A stretch of DNA of 24,392 nucleotides from positions 1-24,392 of IMG/VR virus record IMGVR_UViG_3300026256_000056. One strand, given 5' to 3'. Source of the DNA: a virus. Positions 1-19,801 of the stretch are shown one piece after another. Every line of letters starts with the position of its first letter. Position 1 is the stretch's first letter. The translations under genes were made by a program, and so were the position numbers. The notes under the pieces are model-generated. The model saw nothing but the letters and a program-made list of their open reading frames with translations. It did not search any database and was not told where the DNA came from.

Positions 1-114
1 GCATTTATATTATTAATAGTTACTTTAGCACAATCACACTATAGAATTAAAGTGTTGGAAGAGAAAATTAAAGTAGCATTTGAACTTATTAATAAGTTAA
101 CAGACAAAAAATGA
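1..114 (+). CDS. 3' end of a small membrane-associated protein (partial)
   Basis: Frame 1 is open from the window edge to TGA at 112-114 and gives the last 37 residues of a protein. They begin with a hydrophobic stretch (AFILLIVTLA) followed by a charged, probably helical tail (RIKVLEEKIKVAFELINKL). This pattern fits a small single-pass membrane protein with a short coiled tail. The stop overlaps the ATG of the next small gene in an ATGA arrangement, which supports both being real. No family was recognised and the start lies outside the window. Confidence 0.5.
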   Translation, partial: AFILLIVTLAQSHYRIKVLEEKIKVAFELINKLTDKK

Positions 115-226: not shown

Positions 227-1818
227 CCTTTAACAGTACAAATACCTAGTTTATAAAACTTAAAGTCTAAATCTTTTTTAGTATTTTGAGATATTACTAT
301 TGTAGTATTGAAATCTTTACTCTTACCTTCCAATCTACTTGCCAAATTAACAGCGTCACCAATAACAGAATAATCAAAACGTTGTTCAGACCCCATATTA
401 CCTACAAGACACTCGCCAGTATTGATACCTATACCAATGTTTAAAGGTGGGTCAAACTCTCTACTCTTATTCATCTCCTTAACTGCTCTTCTCATTTGAA
501 ATGCAGATAGTACTGCTAGTTTTTTGTGTTCTGGATTATCAAGTGGTGCATTCCAAAATGCCATTATACAATCACCCATATACTTATCAATAGTACCACC
601 ATTTTTTAATATTATCCCCGTCATTGCAGTTAAAAATTTGTTAACATATCTGGTAAGTTTTTCTGGATTACCTTTCATAGATTCCGATATAGGAGTAAAG
701 CCACGTATATCAGAAAATAAAAACGTCATTTCTTTTCTTTCACCACCAAGTTTTAATAGAGATGGATTGTTTTGTAGTTTCTTAACCATATCTGGAGATA
801 GATAGTGTTCAAATTGTTTTTTAATTTGTAGTCTTAATTTATTTTCTTTTGAATAGTTATTGTATGTTAACTGACCCCATATAATAGAACCTATTACAAG
901 AGGACTAAACCAATCAGTTATGATTAAGTGTTGCGTCCATAGATAAGAACTTGCAAGTGTTAAATCAAATAAGTATCCACCAAACCATATCGCAGACCAC
1001 ATCACACCACATCTAGGTATAACTATGAGAAAGAATAGAGTACCTAATAATATAAAACCAAATTCAGCATATGGTAACCAATAAGGTCTACTAATAAAAT
1101 TACCTGACAATAAAGTTTCTGTACTGATTGCCATAATTTCGTGTGTGTTTTTTAAACCATTAGGAGTAGTTACAAACGTAGAACCTTTGAACGTAGTACC
1201 TATGAAAACTATTTTACCTTTTACAGACGACCAATCTTTATCAGTAAAATCTATTCTAGGAATATGGTGTCTGAAATCTATCCAAATAGTATCTTCTGCT
1301 GATGTTTTTGCATTGATAACTTTTAAGATAACTTCAGGTATAGAATTATCAAGAGGTAATTTTCTTATAGTGCCATCTATATCAACTGGCACACTTACGT
1401 TGCCTATTGCTATTGCTTTACGTGAGATACTTTGTAGATTTTTTACTTCATCCGTTTCAGTAAGTATGACTGGATATTTTGAAATCATTTTTAAAAACAT
1501 TTCATCACCACCTAATCTATCTTTATGTGGGAAGACTACTTGAAGAACTACTAGAGCGGCACCATTTTTATAAGCATTAATTATGACACGACCAAGTAAA
1601 TCTCTCTTCCACGGCCATTGCCCATTCTTTTTTAATGCTTTGTCTGATATGTCTACTAGGACTAAACTCTTTGATTCATAATTTGTACCAAATTTTTGGT
1701 AGAAATCAAAGGTGTTTAGTTTTGCTGTTTGTAGTAGTACTGGATTTGATAAGTATATTCCAAGTAATATAATCAAAGTCAAATATACAGTCCACGATTT
1801 AGCCAATATTTTAATCAT
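190..1818 (-). CDS. CHASE2-domain class III adenylate cyclase (membrane sensor)
   Basis: Predicted membrane-bound enzyme converting ATP to cAMP. Residues 1-25 form an N-terminal membrane helix. About 30-245 is a CHASE2-type periplasmic sensor domain (VDISDKAL and WPWKR near 55-71; GKIVFIGTT at 201-209). Three further membrane helices fall near 250-267, 272-290 and 303-317. The catalytic domain starts near 360. Catalytic residues look complete: FSDIRGFT (metal Asp370), DKYMGD (Lys412 for the base, metal Asp416), and the segment 481-495 with Asn491 and Arg495 of the transition-state site. Ser484 stands where mammalian cyclases carry Asp, matching the class IIIb Lys-Thr/Ser pairing. Lys412 argues against guanylate specificity. 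It is the only minus-strand gene here and diverges from the curli-like genes across 55 bases. The ATG at 1818 has no clear Shine-Dalgarno. In bacteria, CHASE2 cyclases are often found beside FecR-domain proteins, as here. Confidence 0.9.
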   Translation of the reverse strand: MIKILAKSWTVYLTLIILLGIYLSNPVLLQTAKLNTFDFYQKFGTNYESKSLVLVDISDKALKKNGQWPWKRDLLGRVIINAYKNGAALVVLQVVFPHKDRLGGDEMFLKMISKYPVILTETDEVKNLQSISRKAIAIGNVSVPVDIDGTIRKLPLDNSIPEVILKVINAKTSAEDTIWIDFRHHIPRIDFTDKDWSSVKGKIVFIGTTFKGSTFVTTPNGLKNTHEIMAISTETLLSGNFISRPYWLPYAEFGFILLGTLFFLIVIPRCGVMWSAIWFGGYLFDLTLASSYLWTQHLIITDWFSPLVIGSIIWGQLTYNNYSKENKLRLQIKKQFEHYLSPDMVKKLQNNPSLLKLGGERKEMTFLFSDIRGFTPISESMKGNPEKLTRYVNKFLTAMTGIILKNGGTIDKYMGDCIMAFWNAPLDNPEHKKLAVLSAFQMRRAVKEMNKSREFDPPLNIGIGINTGECLVGNMGSEQRFDYSVIGDAVNLASRLEGKSKDFNTTIVISQNTKKDLDFKFYKLGICTVKGKKEKINCYSIK

Positions 1819-1842
1819 CTAGTATATTTAGTACAGATATTT

Positions 1843-1850
1843 TATAAATA
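1843..1850 (+). promoter_or_regulatory. T4-late-type promoter box TATAAATA
   Basis: An exact TATAAATA, the T4 late promoter consensus, lies 23 bases before the csgF-like ATG. A start about 12 bases downstream of the box would give a leader of roughly 10 bases containing GAGAGAGAG as ribosome site. In DNA this AT-rich the octamer will occur several times by chance, so its placement in the short divergent intergenic gap is what gives it weight. If real, the curli-like genes are expressed late. Confidence 0.5.
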
Positions 1851-1873
1851 TATACATCAACGAGAGAGAGAAA

Positions 1874-2332
1874 ATGAGATTAATTACCATTATTTTAACA
1901 GTATTATTGTTAGGTTCTAGTGCTTATGCAAGTGAATTAGGATTTAAATTCCATAGTCCATCATTTTCTGGTAATGGAAAGTCATCACACTATCTAACGA
2001 TAGAGAACATAGAGAAAACTAGAAAAGACGCTATAAAAGCAGCAAATAAAGCGGCGGCAGATAAAGCGGCGGCAGATGCTAAATCAACATCTATAGCAAA
2101 ATTCAAAGCAAATATAGAGTCAAGATTTTATACTGCTCTTGCAAAACAAATTACAGACAATGTATTTGGTACTGATGGTCTTCAACAAGACTCAGGTACA
2201 TTTACAAATCCAGTTGGTGGAGAAACAGTTGAGTGGACAACACCATCAGGTACAGGTAATGTCGTAGTAACTGTCACGGAGTCCGATGGAACTGTAACGA
2301 CATTTACAATGCCTAAAGAGGACAATTCGTAA
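1874..2332 (+). CDS. csgF: CsgF-like curli assembly protein
   Basis: A 152-residue secreted protein with a clear signal peptide (residues 1-19, ending in AYA). The mature N-terminus, ELGFKFHSPSFSGNG, matches the CsgF pattern of a short strand followed by NPxFGGNP. In E. coli this N-terminal part binds inside the CsgG pore and extends it. The C-terminal third (VVVTVTESDGTVTTFTMP) resembles the CsgF beta strands that carry T-S-T-I motifs. Compared with E. coli CsgF (138 residues) it has an Ala/Lys/Asp-rich insert at about 55-72 (AAADKAAADAK), encoded by a perfect tandem 15-base duplication. The gene starts at ATG 1874 behind a GAGAG ribosome site and its TAA overlaps the ATG of csgG (TAATG). 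Order F then G, and the absence of CsgE, differ from E. coli. Confidence 0.75.
   Translation: MRLITIILTVLLLGSSAYASELGFKFHSPSFSGNGKSSHYLTIENIEKTRKDAIKAANKAAADKAAADAKSTSIAKFKANIESRFYTALAKQITDNVFGTDGLQQDSGTFTNPVGGETVEWTTPSGTGNVVVTVTESDGTVTTFTMPKEDNS
2048..2077 (+). repeat. Perfect tandem 15-bp duplication inside csgF-like gene
   Basis: AAAGCGGCGGCAGAT occurs at 2048-2062 and again at 2063-2077 without a mismatch, encoding Lys-Ala-Ala-Ala-Asp twice. The GCG codons are conspicuous in a genome that otherwise prefers GCA and GCT, suggesting a recent in-frame slippage event. Confidence 0.9.
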
Positions 2333-3486
2333 TGTTTAAATACATAAGTATATTTTTACTAACATTATTGTTAGTTGGATGTGCAGGTAAACCAAAGTTT
2401 GATATAAGAACTCAAACAGTTGCTTATAAAGACTTGTCAGTTATATCAGCACCGAAAGGTGAACCAATTATAATTGCTGTCTATGACTTTTTAGATATGA
2501 CAGGACAAAAGAAACCTGGTGGCAACTTTGCGTCTATGAGTACAGCAGTAACTCAAGGTTCATATCAGTTGTTGATTAAAGCATTACAAGACGCAGGCGA
2601 AGGCAAATGGTTTAGAGTAGTAGAACGAGCAAGTTTACCAAGTCTATTACAAGAAAGAAAATTAATACGTTCTACAAGACAACAAGTTAATGGAGAAGGT
2701 GCAGAACCATTACCACCATTACTATTTGCAGGTGCATATATAACAGGTGGTATTGTAGGATATGATAGTGATATTAAATCAGGTGGTTTAGGTGCTAGAA
2801 TATTAGGTATTCAAAGCAACAAACAATTTAGACAAGATATAGTTACTATTATATTAAGACTAGTCAATGTACAAACTGGTGAAGTTGTACTATCAACAAC
2901 AGTTGAAAAGACTATTGTATCAACAATGACTGGTGGAGATATATTCAAGTACTTTGATACTGATACAATGTTATTAGAAGTTGAAGCAGGATATGCTAAG
3001 AACGAACCAGTTACACTTGCAGTTAGAAAAGCAATTGAAAAAGGTGTAGTTGATGTTATTAATTTAGGTGCAAATAAAGGACTATGGGAGTTTGCTGTTG
3101 AAATAGTACCAACAAAAGATTTAAAAGTAGTACAAGATGATATTACAGTTGATATGGGCGAAGTAATGCCAGAAAAAACTTATGAAGACTTTAAGAAAGA
3201 AAAGAAAGCTAGAAAAGAATTAAAGAAAGCACAAAAACTTGAAGTAAAAAATTATAATAAAGCAAATGGAACAAAGTTTAAAACTTGGGACGAATATCAA
3301 GCACATTTAGAACATTTAGCGGCACTTGAAGCTAAAGAAATAGAAAAAGAAGAACGTAAGAACGGTATACAAGATAAAATAACAGAAGAAGAAGAGTGGA
3401 ACCAAGTAGACGAAACAGTAGAGGAGAACAAGTCAGATGAAAAAGATAGTAATGGCAATAGTGATTCTTCTAGCGACAACAATTAA
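2332..3486 (+). CDS. csgG: CsgG-like curli secretion pore lipoprotein with long C-terminal extension
   Basis: Outer-membrane lipoprotein that in curli systems forms a nonameric channel exporting unfolded curlin. The signal sequence ends in a lipobox (LLVG before Cys17). The CsgG domain spans about 40-255: IIIAVYDFLDMTGQKKPGG, then Asn65-Phe66 matching the E. coli Asn55-Phe56 constriction, ERASLPSLLQERKLIR, IVGYDSDIKSGGLGARILGI (141-160) and a GLW motif (250-252) near the family's normal C-terminus. E. coli CsgG has 277 residues; this one has 384. The extra 130 residues are a Lys/Glu-rich, probably helical segment with an Asp/Ser/Asn tail, which by CsgG topology should lie in the periplasm. 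Its last 50 bases overlap the signal-peptide codons of the next gene in another frame. Assignment to the CsgG family is strong; the transported substrate is inferred to be the next gene product. Confidence 0.9.
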   Translation: MFKYISIFLLTLLLVGCAGKPKFDIRTQTVAYKDLSVISAPKGEPIIIAVYDFLDMTGQKKPGGNFASMSTAVTQGSYQLLIKALQDAGEGKWFRVVERASLPSLLQERKLIRSTRQQVNGEGAEPLPPLLFAGAYITGGIVGYDSDIKSGGLGARILGIQSNKQFRQDIVTIILRLVNVQTGEVVLSTTVEKTIVSTMTGGDIFKYFDTDTMLLEVEAGYAKNEPVTLAVRKAIEKGVVDVINLGANKGLWEFAVEIVPTKDLKVVQDDITVDMGEVMPEKTYEDFKKEKKARKELKKAQKLEVKNYNKANGTKFKTWDEYQAHLEHLAALEAKEIEKEERKNGIQDKITEEEEWNQVDETVEENKSDEKDSNGNSDSSSDNN

Positions 3487-4528
3487 TTGTTTCGCAGGTA
3501 ATTCAGTTTATATCCAACAAGATAATCAAGACAGCGACGGATCAATCTTTATAAAACAAGATGGTTCAGGTAATACTTTTGGGTATTCAACATCATATCC
3601 ATTTAAAGTAAGTGGAGAGAACATCACAATCGTTATAAAACAAATAGGTGATAATAATAAAACAGATTATTCAAATCACTTGACTTTTTATGGTGAGGAT
3701 ATGACTTTAGATTATACAGCAACTGGTGATGGTAATAAATTAAGAATAGATAGTGATGATACGGATGCTACTGGACATTATTTAGACCACGATATTACAG
3801 GTGATTCAAATGTAGTAGATTATGATACCTGGGGAGATGATTCAACAAATTTCAATGTTGATTTAGATATTACTGGAGACTCAAATACATTTTGGGTACA
3901 GAATAGAGGAGATAATCACTTCTTATATGTTCTTATATCAGGTGATAGTAATACCGTAGAGTGGTATAGTACAACAGATTCAGTAGGGTTTAATACAAAC
4001 TCTAACAAGGCAATTGGTCCACAATCAACATCACACGGACAGTTTGCAGACAGTTCAGGTAGTGAAGGTGCAAGTGCAGACATTTATATTATTGGTAACT
4101 CAAATGTAATACATACTTCAACATATGGTACAGGTAACTATCAACTACACGACATTATAGGTTCTTCAAACCTTTTAGATATACACTCTAGTTACACTGG
4201 TTCTGATACAGACCCATATGGAGACTCAATGATTATATCAGGCGATAGTAATTATTTAAGGACTTATATATCTGGTGATAGTAATACAATAAGATTACAT
4301 ATGGCAGGTGGAAATAATACTGCTAAAATTTATCTTTATACAGATAGTTCAGTAATAAACTTTGCTCAAACAGGTGGTGGCAACACAGGTCAAGTTACTA
4401 TATCAGGTGATTCAATTTACGATTACACATTAAACTTTTCACAAAATGGATCCGATAATTGTACATATTCGTACAACAGAAACAATCAAACAGCAGATGT
4501 AACTGCTACAGTATCAAACGGATGTTAA
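3437..4528 (+). CDS. Curlin-like secreted GDSN-repeat protein
   Basis: A 363-residue secreted protein with a Sec signal peptide (residues 1-20, ending CFA before Gly21). The mature part is built from about a dozen imperfect units of 20-30 residues centred on hydrophobic-x-G-D-S-N-x-hydrophobic (ITGDSNVV, ITGDSNTF, ISGDSNTV, IIGNSNVI, ISGDSNYL, ISGDSNTI). Curlin subunits CsgA and CsgB have Gln/Asn-anchored repeats with a G-x-x-N turn, so a beta-solenoid amyloid-like fibre subunit is the likely fold. Early units (VYIQQDN, IFIKQDG, VIKQIGDNN) are closest to canonical curlin, and the last unit has FSQNGSDN. Only two mature Cys (342 and 363) are present. ATG 3437 is chosen because it opens the signal peptide and has GAGGAG about 10 bases upstream; it lies inside the 3' end of csgG. 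Position after CsgF and CsgG makes it the probable secretion substrate. It could instead be an adhesin rather than a fibre former. Confidence 0.7.
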   Translation: MKKIVMAIVILLATTINCFAGNSVYIQQDNQDSDGSIFIKQDGSGNTFGYSTSYPFKVSGENITIVIKQIGDNNKTDYSNHLTFYGEDMTLDYTATGDGNKLRIDSDDTDATGHYLDHDITGDSNVVDYDTWGDDSTNFNVDLDITGDSNTFWVQNRGDNHFLYVLISGDSNTVEWYSTTDSVGFNTNSNKAIGPQSTSHGQFADSSGSEGASADIYIIGNSNVIHTSTYGTGNYQLHDIIGSSNLLDIHSSYTGSDTDPYGDSMIISGDSNYLRTYISGDSNTIRLHMAGGNNTAKIYLYTDSSVINFAQTGGGNTGQVTISGDSIYDYTLNFSQNGSDNCTYSYNRNNQTADVTATVSNGC

Positions 4529-6712
4529 ATGAAACTATTTCATAATCCTTGGGAAAAATGGGCGATAATAATTTGTGTTACTGTATTATTAGTATTAGGA
4601 ATATCATCAGCTAAATCTCAAATAACAAGTCCAAAAGTTGGCGAAGTCATAGGTCAAATGGGTACGACTTGGAATGAAAGAGAAGGATCAACTCAAAATA
4701 CCTCAATGGGTTATGAGTTGCAGATGAATGACTTTTTACAAACAGGTGAAGATGGTGGTATGATATTATCTTATGTTGATAATACTAAATTTACAATGGG
4801 ACCAAATACAGAATTAACTATTGATGAATTTGCTTTTGATACTTCTGTTGTACCAATAGAAATTGCAATGAACATATCGGTTAATGTTGGTACATTTACA
4901 TATGAATCAGGTCAAGTATCTACATTAGGTGGAGAAGTTAATATTAATGCTGGTAATGCTACAATTACAGTACAAGGTACTGCTTTTTCAGGTACGGTAA
5001 CATCTTCAGGTCAAGCAACTATTACTTTGTTGCCAGATAGTTCTGGTGCAGTAGGACAAGTAACTGTATCCAATGACGCAGGTTCTCAAACAATAACTAA
5101 CGCTTACAATTCAGTAACCGTTTTATCAAATGACTTAGCACCAACACCTCCAAAAATAGAAACTAATAAACAAGATATTATTGAGTTAGATGAATTTGAA
5201 GAAGAAATAAAAGATGAAAGTCAAAAACATTTTGGTGATATGGATTCAAAATCTGAAATGTCTAAAGAAGAATCTGAAGCACAGGAGATGGAAGAGGCAA
5301 TCATAAATGAAGAAGTAAGTATAGTAGAAGATAGTAATACAATTGTTGCTACAGATTTATCAGTTGGTGAAACAGACGCAATAGTTGAAACAAAATCAGC
5401 AGAAGAAACAGCATTAGTTGAAATAGAAGAAGTTGATACATCTTATTATGACGAATGGGAAAGTGATTTAAAAGATTGGGGTTATATAGATGAAGATAAC
5501 CAGATTTCAGTTTGGGATGCCGAAGGTGAAAAAACTATGGATTGGGATGACGCAAAGAAAATGTATGCAGAAATGGATCAAGCATACTTTGACGCCATTG
5601 GTTGTTCAGATTGTACTTGGGATACTATTGATTGGGATACTATTGATTGGGATGAGGTAGATTGGGATGCTTATTCTGACAAGTATAATGAACTATTAGA
5701 AGACTATGGTTTAACTTCTTGGAATGTAGAAGTAGAAGAGCAAGATGTAGTTGAAGATACAAAAGATGAAACAGAAGTACAAGCAATTGAAGGATATACT
5801 TGGGAAGATTTTGCTTTAGATGATGACTACTATAACAATGCAGAATACAAAGCACAAGGTGGACCTCCAACATTAACTGTACAAAACTATTGTGAGTACA
5901 ATGGATACGAAGACTACTGGTGCAACCAAGACTATGTTGATTACTTAAATGACTGGTACAAAGATGACTGGACTTTAAAAGTAACCAATGATAGTTGGAC
6001 TAAAGAATCTAAAAAGATATTTGGTAAATTATATGGTTGGTGTGGATCGTGGCCGAATTATAAAATGTGTGATGACCAACCTAAACCCTGGAAGATGAAA
6101 GACTTAAAGAAGACTTACATAACTGATTGGGAGTGGGCAGATTGGGACACATATTGGGACGCATTATACGATTGGTGGTACACAGGTTACGATTACAATA
6201 ATGAAGATGATGAGACCAATTGGGAAGATGAATATTCTTATGAAGATGACTATGATATAGACGCAGAATTAGAATTATTATTAGCAAGTTATGATGAAGA
6301 AGAGTGTTTAAAATATGGATACTATTGGGACAATGCTAATCAATCTTGTGGTAGTGAATGGGTTGATAACGAAGGTAATGAAACTTCGGTAACTGCTAGT
6401 GGTGAAACATTAAACTACTCTACTGGAGATGTAACTCAAACTCTAACTACAACAGATGGAGTAACAGGTGCGACTTCAAGTGCAACTTCCACTGGAAGAG
6501 TATCAACATTAGGCAATGATTTTGACGCAGATTCAAGTACAAGTGGCGATTACACAATCATAAATAGATATAACGATAATCATAGAGCATATGTAAAGAC
6601 TGAAACGAGTAAAGAGGCAGATATTCAGATTTTACAAGATAAAGAAGCTCAACACCTTGACGTAGGAAATTCTTCTACACAAAATAATATTACAGTAATA
6701 CAAACGGATTAA
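4529..6712 (+). CDS. FecR-domain protein with Trp/Asp-rich region and curlin-like C-terminus
   Basis: A 727-residue exported or membrane-anchored protein. A single hydrophobic segment at about 11-28 acts as signal anchor or signal peptide. Residues about 35-165 form a FecR domain: GEVIGQMGTTW, NDFLQTGEDGGMILSYVDNT, KFTMGPNTELTIDEF and ITVQGTAFSGTV. After a Pro-containing linker (about 205) comes a long acidic region, then a stretch rich in Trp, Asp and Tyr (about 305-600), including a 5-residue repeat DTIDW. The last 50 residues (ADIQILQ, NNITVIQ) look like a curlin-type strand pair. ATG follows the curlin-like stop directly, implying co-translation. FecR domains are periplasmic sensor or carbohydrate-associated modules and often neighbour CHASE2 cyclases. 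A surface adhesin, fibre cap or sensor ligand are all possible; the middle region matches nothing I know. Confidence 0.7.
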   Translation: MKLFHNPWEKWAIIICVTVLLVLGISSAKSQITSPKVGEVIGQMGTTWNEREGSTQNTSMGYELQMNDFLQTGEDGGMILSYVDNTKFTMGPNTELTIDEFAFDTSVVPIEIAMNISVNVGTFTYESGQVSTLGGEVNINAGNATITVQGTAFSGTVTSSGQATITLLPDSSGAVGQVTVSNDAGSQTITNAYNSVTVLSNDLAPTPPKIETNKQDIIELDEFEEEIKDESQKHFGDMDSKSEMSKEESEAQEMEEAIINEEVSIVEDSNTIVATDLSVGETDAIVETKSAEETALVEIEEVDTSYYDEWESDLKDWGYIDEDNQISVWDAEGEKTMDWDDAKKMYAEMDQAYFDAIGCSDCTWDTIDWDTIDWDEVDWDAYSDKYNELLEDYGLTSWNVEVEEQDVVEDTKDETEVQAIEGYTWEDFALDDDYYNNAEYKAQGGPPTLTVQNYCEYNGYEDYWCNQDYVDYLNDWYKDDWTLKVTNDSWTKESKKIFGKLYGWCGSWPNYKMCDDQPKPWKMKDLKKTYITDWEWADWDTYWDALYDWWYTGYDYNNEDDETNWEDEYSYEDDYDIDAELELLLASYDEEECLKYGYYWDNANQSCGSEWVDNEGNETSVTASGETLNYSTGDVTQTLTTTDGVTGATSSATSTGRVSTLGNDFDADSSTSGDYTIINRYNDNHRAYVKTETSKEADIQILQDKEAQHLDVGNSSTQNNITVIQTD
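5621..5665 (+). repeat. 15-bp tandem repeat coding for DTIDW
   Basis: GATACTATTGATTGG is present exactly at 5621-5635 and 5636-5650, followed by a degenerate third copy (GATGAGGTAGATTGG) at 5651-5665. The product is DTIDW-DTIDW-DEVDW (residues 365-379 of the FecR protein). It is an in-frame protein repeat, like the one in the csgF-like gene. Confidence 0.9.
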
Positions 6713-17536: not shown

Positions 17537-18739
17537 ATGAAATATCCATTAGCTAGTGATACTTGGGATCATAAAGAGTTACACGCAATACAAGAAGTCA
17601 TAAAAGGTGGACGATATACAATGGGTCCTTACGTCAAGAAGTTTGAGCAAGAGTTTGCCAAATATTTTAGATGTAATGAGGCAGTTATGGTTAATAGTGG
17701 GTCAACTGCTAATCTATTAATGATAGCACTATTGAAATTAAAATATAAAAGAGGTGGTAATATAATTGTGCCTGCTGTATCTTGGTCAACAACATATTTT
17801 CCATTACAACAATACGGTTTCAAATTAAATTTTGTAGATGTAGATAGAGAAACTTTAAATATAGACCCTAATAAAGTTAGAGAAGCAATTAATGATGATA
17901 CTTGCGCTATATTTGCAGTTAATCTTTTAGGTAACTCCTGTGACCATTATTCATTAATGCATATTGCTAGAGATAATGGACTTATGTTAATAGAGGACAA
18001 TTGTGAGAGTTTAGGTGCTCAGACATATAACTTTGAATATTGTGGAACGTTTGCTGATTTAGGTAGTTTTTCTTTCTTCTTTTCACATCACTTACAAACA
18101 ATGGAAGGTGGTATGATTGCTTGTAGAAATAAAGATGACGCTGATTATTTAAGGTCATTAAGAGCACACGGTTGGTGCCGAGATTTACCAGACGACAATA
18201 AGATTTATAAGAAGACTGGAGATAAATTTAAAGATAGTTTTACGTTTGTAACTCCAGGTTATAGTGTAAGACCATTAGAAATGAGTGGTGCAATAGGTAG
18301 TGTGCAACTTAAAAAAGAAATGGAAATGAGAACTCAAAGAATTCGTAATGCAAAATATTTTCAACATAAATTTAAAGATAATAAAGATATTTTATTACAG
18401 AAAGAAATAGGAACGTCTAGTTGGTTTGGATTCTCATTAGTATTACAAAATGATTTATATGGTTGGCGTGATGTAATTGTTAATAGACTTACTAAAGCAG
18501 GAGTAGAGTGTAGACCTATTGTTGCAGGTAATTTTATGAACAATCCTGTAATAGATTATCTTGATTATTATAATAATAGTTGTCCAAATGCAGATTACAT
18601 ACACGAAAATGGTTTGTTTATAGGAAACGATATAAGAGATTTAAAAGAAAATATTGATATGGTTTATGATTTGATTAATAAACCAGTAACTAGATTAGAA
18701 CAAATGGAAACATTAACACACGATCCTATTGTGGATTAA
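17537..18739 (+). CDS. DegT-family PLP enzyme with His in place of the PLP lysine (ColD-like 3-dehydratase)
   Basis: 400 residues with the fold of sugar aminotransferases: VNSGSTANLLM (52-62), VPAVSWSTT (78-86), LIEDNCESLGA (151-161) and YSVRPLEMSGAIG near 245-257. At the position of the Schiff-base lysine (usual motif S-F-x-x-x-K-x-L) the sequence is SFFFSHHLQTMEGG-like, with His184-His185 (residues 179-192). Lys to His is the hallmark of GDP-4-keto-6-deoxy-mannose 3-dehydratase (ColD) and of CDP-sugar dehydratase E1/RfbH. E1 also needs a four-cysteine iron-sulphur site, which is not visible here, so ColD is the better model. The next gene is Gmd, which makes ColD's substrate. A good GGAG site precedes the ATG. 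An aminotransferase label would be misleading. Confidence 0.85.
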   Translation: MKYPLASDTWDHKELHAIQEVIKGGRYTMGPYVKKFEQEFAKYFRCNEAVMVNSGSTANLLMIALLKLKYKRGGNIIVPAVSWSTTYFPLQQYGFKLNFVDVDRETLNIDPNKVREAINDDTCAIFAVNLLGNSCDHYSLMHIARDNGLMLIEDNCESLGAQTYNFEYCGTFADLGSFSFFFSHHLQTMEGGMIACRNKDDADYLRSLRAHGWCRDLPDDNKIYKKTGDKFKDSFTFVTPGYSVRPLEMSGAIGSVQLKKEMEMRTQRIRNAKYFQHKFKDNKDILLQKEIGTSSWFGFSLVLQNDLYGWRDVIVNRLTKAGVECRPIVAGNFMNNPVIDYLDYYNNSCPNADYIHENGLFIGNDIRDLKENIDMVYDLINKPVTRLEQMETLTHDPIVD

Positions 18740-18751
18740 TTAAGGAGAAAA

Positions 18752-19801
18752 ATGAAAAGAGCATTAATAACAGGTATAACTGGACAAGACGGCGCTTATC
18801 TTGCTAAATTGTTATTAGAAAAAGGTTATAAAGTATTTGGTGGACAAAGACGAAGTACATCACCAAAACATTGGCGATTAGATGAAATGGGTATTACAGA
18901 CCAAATAGAGTTTGTTGAACTTGATGTAATAGACCAGGCAAATATAAGAAGAGCTATAGAAGAAACTCAACCAGATGAAGTGTATAATTTAGCTGCTCAA
19001 TCTTTTGTATGGTTATCATTTAAACAACCAGAACTTGCTACTTTAATAGACGCAATGGGTCCTTTGAGAATACTAGAAAGTATAAGACAAGTAAATCCTA
19101 AAATAAAATTTTATCAAGCAAGTACAAGTGAAATGTATGGAAAAGTATTTGAAACACCACAAAAAGAAACAACGAAGTTTTGGCCGAGGTCACCATATGG
19201 TGTTGCAAAACTATATGCTCATCACATAACAGTAAATTATAGAGAGGCATATGATATGTTTGCTTGTTGTGGTTTATTATTTAATCACGAAAGTCCACAT
19301 AGAGGTGAGGACTTTGTAACTAGAAAGATATCAAAAGGTTTAGCACATTGGTTGCAAGAAGGAAGACCAATTGTTTTAGGAAATTTAAATGCAAAAAGAG
19401 ATTGGGGACACGCTGAGGATTTTGTTAGAGGTATGTGGCAAATGCTACAACACGATAAACCAGATGATTATGTATTAGCAACTGGTGAAATTCATACAGT
19501 AAAAGAATTTGCAGATATGGCATTAGATTATAAAGATATAAAACATTATTGGAAAGATGGTCAATGTTTTACAGACGGCAATCAGTTAATTATTACTACT
19601 GATAAGAAACATTTAAGACCTGCTGAGGTAGATGTATTACAAGGGGATGCTAGTAAGGCAAGAGAAGTATTAGGTTGGGAACATAAACATAATGTAGAGA
19701 GTTTAATGAAACAAATGGTTGACGCAGATATCGGTAGATTTTGTAGTGACCATCAATCAGGAGTACCAAGACTTTGGGATGCTCCAGAGAATTGTATATA
19801 A
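18752..19801 (+). CDS. gmd: GDP-mannose 4,6-dehydratase
   Basis: 349 residues, extended short-chain dehydrogenase. It converts GDP-mannose to GDP-4-keto-6-deoxymannose, the branch point to fucose, rhamnose, perosamine and colitose. Evidence: NADP-binding TGITGQDGAYLA (7-18), RR at 33-34 for the NADP phosphate, YNLAAQSF (78-85), the catalytic set STSEMYG (124-130) and YGVAK (Tyr149, Lys153), NHESPHRGEDFVTRK and the C-terminal RPAEVDVLQGD. The layout is very close to Pseudomonas Gmd. The ribosome site AAGGAGA precedes the ATG. The enzyme sits directly downstream of the ColD-like gene and upstream of glycosyltransferases, so it most likely feeds a surface glycan pathway. Confidence 0.95.
   Translation: MKRALITGITGQDGAYLAKLLLEKGYKVFGGQRRSTSPKHWRLDEMGITDQIEFVELDVIDQANIRRAIEETQPDEVYNLAAQSFVWLSFKQPELATLIDAMGPLRILESIRQVNPKIKFYQASTSEMYGKVFETPQKETTKFWPRSPYGVAKLYAHHITVNYREAYDMFACCGLLFNHESPHRGEDFVTRKISKGLAHWLQEGRPIVLGNLNAKRDWGHAEDFVRGMWQMLQHDKPDDYVLATGEIHTVKEFADMALDYKDIKHYWKDGQCFTDGNQLIITTDKKHLRPAEVDVLQGDASKAREVLGWEHKHNVESLMKQMVDADIGRFCSDHQSGVPRLWDAPENCI

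Follow-up and report, generated by a model that had tools for sequence, protein, structure and literature searches.

A curli-type secretion cassette with a late-promoter match and a FecR-CHASE2 adenylate cyclase pair in a marine phage genome

We found that a 24,392-nucleotide stretch of viral DNA (IMG/VR record IMGVR_UViG_3300026256_000056, positions 1 to 24,392; here called the window) carries four head-to-tail open reading frames (ORFs) at positions 1874 to 6712, encoding CsgF, CsgG, a curlin-type beta-solenoid protein and a FecR-type protein, together with a divergent gene for a CHASE2-domain adenylate cyclase and a match to the T4-type late promoter just upstream of csgF. These data support a phage type VIII (curli) cassette made up of a pore, CsgF and a curlin-type substrate, and we are close to certain that the five gene identities are correct. 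The carrier is a T4-like marine myophage, most likely of SAR11, the nearest phage by primase being Mosig of SAR11 (74.5%). The module is already known from ocean phages: curli clusters that include FecR and adenylate cyclase have been published from pelagiphages (PMC7029224, PMC9599517), and a curli operon has been published from the OM43 phage Melnitz (PMC9004378). The first-pass annotation of this DNA had placed the four head-to-tail genes exactly where we find them and had described clusters of this sort as widespread among pelagimyophages, their function being unclear, in agreement with PMC7029224. We did not find in print the late-promoter match at csgF, the curlin-like tail of FecR or the use of the FecR-CHASE2 pairing as an argument against an iron-related role.

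The csgF gene (1874 to 2332, plus strand) was identified by its own Pfam match (PF10614, E = 1.8e-12). The best-conserved part of the protein is its N-terminal region, a putative CsgG-binding segment that contains the PSF-G motif common to bacterial CsgF, which points to a CsgF that would partner CsgG. The csgG gene (2332 to 3486, plus strand), which encodes a predicted outer-membrane lipoprotein pore, also has its own Pfam match (PF03783, E = 1.4e-49), and a profile built from the CsgG alignment matched solved E. coli-type CsgG at an E value of 1.5e-68 over chain residues 2 to 259 of 277, so the earlier assignment of this gene holds and a placement outside the CsgG family did not occur. Candidate export signals were recognized by eye as hydrophobic N termini, a lipobox (LLLVGC) in CsgG and AxA-type sites. 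Past its conserved core (after residue 254), CsgG of the window clade has a charged C-terminal tail of about 130 residues (3094 to 3483, plus strand) that is variable within the clade and almost missing in the alignment from phages HTVC008M and Melnitz. We considered whether this tail stands in for CsgE, but HTVC008M and Melnitz are without CsgE and almost without the tail, and it is therefore no general explanation of gating. The csgG gene overlaps the following curlin-type gene by 50 nt (3437 to 3486).

The product of this next gene (3437 to 4528, plus strand) is a putative secreted fibre subunit with GDSN-type repeats. Its own sequence has no match to Pfam Curlin_rpt and scores far under the cut-off of the NCBIfam CsgA model (E = 2.1e-4), so the evidence for a curlin-repeat subunit lies at the level of the family: 14 of the 24 members of its alignment match Curlin_rpt within an E limit of 1 (best, 6.8e-7), and the curlin profile match for the family has an E value of 0.0055. 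In addition, BFVD ranks 1, 2 and 4 for this protein are curlin-associated phage proteins. When an AlphaFold model (pLDDT, 69; pTM, 0.72) was compared with solved structures by VIA-align, the best match was CsgA (8c50; Z = 25.5, 294 residues, 21% identity, rmsd 9.1), and the other 49 matches listed, tailspikes included, had Z scores of at most 17.8, about 8 units lower. A plain Foldseek search of the PDB with the same model gave nothing at an E value of ≤0.001, and CsgA was not among the 50 matches listed. The data thus support the view that this protein is more like curlin than like any tail fibre, in keeping with the curlin-like units noted in the first-pass annotation, and a tail-fibre identity is judged the less likely one from the VIA-align margin.

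The last of the four ORFs (4529 to 6712, plus strand) encodes a putatively exported FecR-domain protein. Here too the window sequence itself has no Pfam match, and the FecR assignment, already made in the first-pass annotation, comes from relatives, 17 of 20 alignment members matching FecR within an E limit of 1 (best, 3.7e-10). The match to the NCBIfam LapA-type retention module was weak and under its cut-off (E = 0.017). The middle part of the protein, about 400 residues long, is acidic and bears Trp and Cys; it is predicted to be helical, with pLDDT values of 80 to 90 at about residues 301 to 400 and 420 to 560, within a whole-protein model that is poor (pLDDT, 54; best VIA-align Z, 3.4). 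The alignment also has a conserved end, consisting of curlin-like C-terminal strands (6617 to 6709, plus strand) that finish with ITVIQTD. A curlin-like strand ends FecR in 44 of 46 distinct tails versus 13 of 480 control tails, a post hoc count since the motif was written after the alignment had been seen. No such tail was present in five bacterial FecR proteins, of which one was truncated in the sequence examined.

The first-pass annotation described a stripped-down set of pore, cap and substrate, a description that leaves FecR unexplained and omits a fifth gene, on the minus strand at 190 to 1818. Its product matches Pfam CHASE2 (E = 1.2e-27) and Guanylate_cyc (E = 6.8e-25), as well as solved adenylate cyclases (6fht, E = 9.6e-36; CyaB 3r5g, E = 2e-33). 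In the alignment to 6fht and 3r5g, it retains the Asp, the Lys/Asp and the Asn/Arg positions that we take to serve in metal binding, substrate binding and transition-state stabilization, respectively, as predicted for a class III adenylate cyclase. An adenylate cyclase is present in 62 of 63 assessable cassette loci, a count that pools loci with the cyclase upstream and downstream and in which "assessable" (cyclase seen, or more than 2.5 kb of sequence after a complete FecR gene) favours presence.

In gene content, the phage cassette pairs a putatively exported FecR-domain protein with a CHASE2 receptor that carries an output domain. Such a pairing also occurs in bacteria, where FecR was the commonest family in the ORFs flanking 30 CHASE2 loci (5 of 63 ORFs), and a FecR profile built from the phage proteins found FecR beside CHASE2 in 5 of 30 bacterial loci. 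A biofilm operon of Burkholderia contaminans (PMC5192318) likewise encodes FecR, as an exported protein, next to a CHASE2 receptor, although this receptor is a histidine kinase rather than a cyclase, and the CHASE2 cyclases of S. meliloti raise cAMP on a surface signal (PMC13001267). In contrast, FecR and cyclase are not a regular part of bacterial curli operons: the phage-built profiles (E ≤ 0.001) found neither in any of 39 bacterial curli regions (37 fetched plus L051 and L052, with about 8 to 10 kb per side where the contig allowed; the sub-threshold genome G349 was left out). Since FecR-CHASE2 is a bacterial sensor pairing that is also found away from curli, the published reading of the phage FecR as an iron regulator is doubtful, and the curlin-like FecR tail disfavours it as well. 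The Pfam-scanned proteins of the window included neither a partner sigma factor nor a TonB-dependent receptor of the FecR-FecI ferric-citrate kind. A phage-encoded cAMP receptor (cNMP-binding protein) was found in none of 15 phage records, and searching the literature for a cAMP receptor in SAR11 yielded nothing useful among the matches listed.

The first-pass annotation had guessed that the cassette is expressed late, and a consensus match now stands behind that guess. The T4-type late promoter octamer TATAAATA lies at 1843 to 1850 on the plus strand, 31 to 24 nt before the csgF start, and is the only copy in the window, versus 7.7 expected by chance. The same octamer precedes csgF in 115 of 126 loci and in 60 of 67 CsgG clusters (from 69 formed at 95% identity, among which common ancestry remains). 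In the same search space before the other genes, it was found at 0 of 68 csgG, 0 of 55 fecR, 0 of 64 curlin and 1 of 27 adenylate cyclase genes. In HTVC008M, for which part of the annotation served as the gene list, the octamer precedes virion genes, such as those for the portal, sheath, wedge and gp2. The late-promoter assignment narrows the candidate functions: late timing weakens the case for import of nutrients and for superinfection exclusion of the classical, early kind, while aggregation, a changed cell surface late in infection, assistance at lysis and a fibre on the virion may all be compatible with it.

The order csgF-csgG-curlin-fecR recurs in 47 related viral loci, within the reach of each contig, and in HTVC008M, with Melnitz agreeing by annotation, so the layout first noted in the window is conserved; dN/dS values of 0.11 to 0.31 across the five cassette genes indicate purifying selection. 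In the pelagimyophage/HTVC023P-type cluster (HTVC008M gp014 to gp019; PMC7029224, PMC9599517), the order of these four genes is the same, a CHASE2 adenylate cyclase is present, and CsgE is absent, as in the window. Unlike the HTVC008M-type cluster, the window clade has its cyclase upstream and divergent, no second curlin gene and a FecR of 727 rather than 368 amino acids; its cassette lies between spanin genes and primase, whereas the HTVC008M-type one adjoins ssb and the tape measure gene. Among 20 of the HTVC008M-type second curlin proteins, 3 contain PA14 and 1 contains GLEYA, the three PA14 proteins being closely related. PA14 and GLEYA are domains of a kind found in yeast flocculins. Like the window, the Melnitz record is annotated with csgF, csgG, curlin-repeat proteins, FecR and cyclase, and its CsgG is 43% identical to that of the window; the paper text reports csgA and csgB to be absent, whereas the record annotates two curlin-repeat proteins (PMC9004378).

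Compared with the E. coli curli system (CsgA to CsgG), the window shares a nearly full-length CsgG core, the CsgF N-terminal motif and a curlin solenoid, whereas FecR and the cyclase are extra. The first-pass annotation saw no CsgE, CsgB, CsgC or CsgD; we likewise saw none of the last three, and a search for CsgE was negative in all 15 phage records (13 of them IMG/VR contigs and possibly fragments) while the E. coli control was positive. According to PMC7029224, the CsgE gate is not strictly essential in E. coli.

Directly upstream of the cassette, the window begins with the 3' end of a gene that we call tm54 (1 to 111, plus strand; tblastn, 94.6%), for a 54-amino-acid protein that has a single transmembrane helix followed or preceded by a short coiled coil. 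Of 50 phage records searched, 37 have a relative of this gene adjoining the cassette, and one relative, at locus L007, has a weak BhlA-holin match (E = 0.024); we treat tm54 as flanking sequence that may or may not belong to the module. The "histidine kinase" published as lying upstream of csgF in podophages might conceivably be a small membrane protein of the tm54 kind.

We consider it somewhat probable that the cassette provides a late curli pore and fibre that alter the surface of the infected cell, with a FecR-CHASE2 cyclase sensor attached. In this proposal, the cassette would be transcribed from the late promoter in the infected host, and the host Sec system would export its proteins. 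CsgG would form a pore in the outer membrane, with CsgF placed at the opening. Through this pore the curlin-type solenoid protein would leave and form amyloid on the surface of the dying cell; working curlin secretion as such is probable. The exported FecR protein may join or sense curlin by its C-terminal curlin-like strand, and its pairing with the cyclase could convert a signal from the periplasm or the cell surface into cAMP. As for the benefit, an adhesive late surface of the infected cell, leading to aggregation (what others term "sibling capture"), is tentatively the likeliest one; the flocculin-type domains of the HTVC008M-type second curlin proteins favour it but come from a clade other than that of the window, and clumping was not seen with Melnitz in culture (PMC9004378). 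Also speculative, and less likely, is that amyloid secretion monitors itself, with the FecR tail sensing or capping curlin in the envelope and driving the cyclase, which would give a late cAMP report of fibre export.

Other functions for these genes deserve weighing against this late surface fibre. The fibres could instead form a coat that blocks adsorption of released virions or rivals to the infected cell or its debris, without aggregation. Surface fibres and late timing are compatible with such a coat, and the window encodes sugar-modifying enzymes (GDP-mannose dehydratase, DegT aminotransferase) of a kind that others tie to serotype change, but classical superinfection exclusion is needed early, and we regard a coat as possible though rather unlikely. 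Less likely still, CsgG, with or without CsgF, could be a diverged outer-membrane channel for timed lysis and no curli secretor, in line with a pinholin or secretin idea for lysis proposed for Melnitz (PMC9004378). The late promoter before csgF and the failure to find a CsgE plug fit this, as does an Rz/Rz1-like spanin pair directly upstream on the same island in 23 of 50 phage records, including locus L001, whose cassette is identical to that of the window. However, the HTVC008M spanin genes lie at 117 kb, far from its cassette at 7.5 kb, and the phage already has spanins. The substrate gene also stays adjacent to the pore gene under purifying selection, and conservation of the CsgF N-terminal motif is contrary to CsgF and CsgG having parted.

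We think it improbable that curlin, FecR and CsgF belong to the virion, as its fibres or whiskers: they would share a late promoter with HTVC008M virion genes and beta-solenoid folds with tailspikes (Z up to 17.8), but they carry apparent export signals, CsgG belongs to an outer-membrane lipoprotein family, the structural lead of CsgA remains, and PHROGs matches of the five proteins include no tail family, the single one of known function being a weak spanin match on the CsgG signal region (E = 0.058). Very improbable is the import of nutrients or iron, which PMC9599517 brings up as an option and in which an open CsgG pore would admit large molecules and FecR would be a ferric-citrate regulator: the FecR domain and the missing CsgE gate speak for it, but late timing, the curlin-like FecR tail and the pairing of bacterial FecR with CHASE2 sensors without need of curli or iron genes speak against it, and the curlin gene is left unexplained.

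Apparent late control and an amyloid-like tail on the putative sensor protein offer new handles on the function of this cassette, and the curlin-like FecR tail beside a CHASE2 cyclase suggests a concrete wiring in which curlin export might raise cAMP. If the self-monitoring reading is true, phages have welded curli secretion to a bacterial FecR-CHASE2 sensor. If phages make their hosts grow amyloid late, infection would alter recombination and contacts between cells in the ocean, a speculation already voiced by others.

The cassette itself belongs to an already published curli cluster, and its five genes comprise a CHASE2 adenylate cyclase gene on the minus strand (190-1818) and then, on the plus strand, csgF (1874-2332), csgG (2332-3486), a curlin-type gene (3437-4528), and a FecR-type gene (4529-6712). 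The CsgF and CsgG assignments are secure, and the CsgG alignment profile matches solved CsgG across residues 2-259 of 277. The window's own curlin-type sequence had no Pfam match; Curlin_rpt was matched by 14 of the 24 sequences aligned with it (E limit 1; best 6.8e-7), and the alignment profile gave a single match to PDB sequences at E ≤ 0.1, a major curlin subunit (E 0.0055). AlphaFold predicts a beta-solenoid for this protein. Plain Foldseek of the model against the PDB returned weak matches, with CsgA absent among the 50 rows listed. A structural second look placed CsgA 8c50 at the top, with Z 25.5 over 294 residues (21% identity, rmsd 9.1); tailspikes reached at most Z 17.8. Against viral predicted structures, "Curlin associated" phage proteins took Foldseek ranks 1, 2, and 4. 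The window's FecR-type sequence likewise lacked a Pfam match of its own, with FecR matched by 17 of 20 alignment members (E limit 1). For the cyclase, the alignment to solved adenylate cyclases runs across the catalytic motifs.

This 24.4-kb virus record is from a T4-like marine myophage, as primase, ribonucleotide reductase, and sugar-nucleotide genes come 3′ of the cassette. Since its primase is closest, in the GenBank phage set, to that of the SAR11 phage Mosig (74.5%, followed by HTVC008M at 49.7%), we infer SAR11 as the host. A DegT-type aminotransferase gene adjoins that for GDP-mannose 4,6-dehydratase (17537-19801), with radical SAM and asparagine-synthase-like genes beside them; such a pair could make GDP-perosamine for surface sugars.

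Relatives were collected with the window CsgG as query (47 viral loci) and with HTVC008M CsgG as query (best 80 of 194 loci taken). The csgF-csgG-curlin-fecR order is kept in the 47 viral loci to each contig's limit. Adding HTVC008M and Melnitz makes 49 loci: in 26 of them the cyclase gene is divergent and lies upstream, in 16 it is co-directional and downstream, and in 7, where contigs or fetched stretches stop inside the cassette, it is unseen. Three of the 49 have a second cyclase; in loci L036 to L038, an extra, diverged adenylate cyclase gene lies 3′ of fecR in the same cassette. Across all phage loci, 83 have a complete FecR gene. Of the 63 loci assessable for the cyclase, 62 contain it (assessable meaning cyclase seen, or more than 2.5 kb beyond a complete FecR gene, a rule that favors presence), the exception being L224. 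Compared with three relatives, the window gave pairwise dN/dS values of 0.11 to 0.31 for the five module genes and 0.06 to 0.15 for primase. The CsgG encoded by OR851715.1 (1.5 kb, titled Salmonella phage S.Kent 1-2-1) shares 43% identity with the window's; this record may be mislabeled or a bacterial gene.

The window has a single copy of the late-promoter octamer TATAAATA, where shuffles predict 7.7, and this copy sits 24 to 31 nt 5′ of csgF. The 147 kb of HTVC008M contain 21 copies, with 28.6 expected; 16 of the 21 are within 100 nt 5′ of a gene in a partial gene list; ten of these precede virion or assembly genes (DNA end protector, wedge proteins, wedge initiators, L-fibre assembly, sheath, and portal) and one precedes csgF. 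When we searched from 120 nt 5′ of each ORF to 90 nt inside it, 115 of 126 csgF loci contained TATAAATA (60 of 67 CsgG clusters at 95% identity), as did 1 of 43 plus-strand cyclase genes (1 of 27 clusters), but none of 129 csgG (68 clusters), 118 curlin (64 clusters), or 101 fecR loci (55 clusters). Six of the 11 csgF loci without TATAAATA carry CATAAATA, and in Melnitz the octamer lies seven nt 5′ of gene 97, two genes before csgF in the same gene run. Late-promoter prediction in pelagimyophages is described as unsuccessful in PMC7029224, Melnitz is credited with 15 late promoters in PMC9004378, and "late promoter" is absent from the main text of PMC9599517. We found no earlier report of the csgF promoter in the open-licence literature searched, including the main text of these three papers.

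The FecR C terminus is a curlin-like strand: a pattern composed after viewing the alignment, and so post hoc, fits 44 of 46 distinct tails compared to 13 of 480 control tails, and one of the two off-pattern tails is from a shortened ORF (L223). In contrast to HTVC008M and Melnitz, FecR of the window clade has an acidic, Trp- and Cys-bearing part of ~400 residues. Among 398 sampled Pseudomonadota genomes, CsgF is found in 37 and CHASE2 in 226. Phage-built profiles detected FecR or a class III cyclase near none of 39 bacterial curli regions, in agreement with PMC9599517. FecR was the commonest family beside bacterial CHASE2, accounting for 5 of 63 ORFs (~88 to 470 aa, with a single one at 471 aa) flanking 30 loci, and the phage FecR profile likewise matches at 5 of the 30. 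PMC5192318 describes a biofilm-controlling operon in which a FecR/LysM protein adjoins a CHASE2 histidine kinase, and PMC13001267 describes Sinorhizobium meliloti CHASE2 cyclases that increase cAMP in response to a protein signal perceived via an outer-membrane barrel. We therefore read FecR-CHASE2 as a predicted sensor pair that phages added to curli, in preference to ferric-citrate regulation. No cNMP-binding domain was detected in 15 phage records searched. No earlier report of the FecR tail or of the FecR-CHASE2 pairing was found in the open-licence literature searched.

In 23 of 50 phage records, the stretch upstream of the cassette contains a DUF1353 gene followed by overlapping Rz/Rz1-like spanin genes (pair at L007:4394-5222, with phrog_739 E 5.7e-8 and phrog_812 E 4.5e-7; L001:1880-2678; 21 more loci). 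In many loci the pair is also preceded by a 52-aa membrane protein, and L001 encodes five cassette proteins identical to the window's. HTVC008M spanin-like genes precede primase, far from the cassette, so the spanin adjacency belongs to one clade's island and not to the module. In another csg-bearing clade, a T4-type lysozyme gene lies ~2 kb 5′ of csgF (L042:1667-2110 and four close relatives). A 54-aa transmembrane and coiled-coil protein (window 1-111; L007:5583-5747) adjoins the cassette in 37 of 50 records, stays there even where inverted together with the cyclase, and might be the podophage gene called histidine kinase. Mosig has no CsgG match; its slot before primase (L155:568-1026, 1250-4313) holds other exported proteins, and one of the four genes there is holin-like with 3TM (PF11351 E 1.6e-5). 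The late promoter is matched here too (L155:1061).

Gene identities, gene order, selection, and the promoter match are established by computation. In the proposed mechanism, Sec would export the cassette proteins, a CsgG9/CsgF9 pore would assemble, and curlin would pass through it without CsgE and form fibres, with FecR touching both curlin and the CHASE2 domain. In established curli structures, the CsgF N terminus inserts into CsgG. The phage CsgF N terminus holds 10 of 28 invariant columns within 24 residues, and its motif is shared with bacterial CsgF, which speaks against the proposal in PMC9004378 that CsgF and CsgG of phages have ceased to pair. PA14 was present in 3 and GLEYA in 1 of 20 HTVC008M-type second curlin proteins scanned (20 of 29 candidates listed), in a clade different from the window's. 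The PA14 bearers are probably those of L048 (HTVC008M), L205, and L212, which resemble one another; HTVC008M gp018 (L048:10576-11901) has an N-terminal PA14, and the other two are assigned by similarity to it. This PA14-curlin protein is a natural adhesin-amyloid fusion, of which no earlier report was found in the open-licence literature searched, including the main text of the three cluster papers. Clumping was not seen in Melnitz infections, according to PMC9004378. As the predicted function of the cassette, a late adhesive surface is preferred, at modest odds, over the less favored alternatives that the cassette helps lysis or forms a virion fibre.
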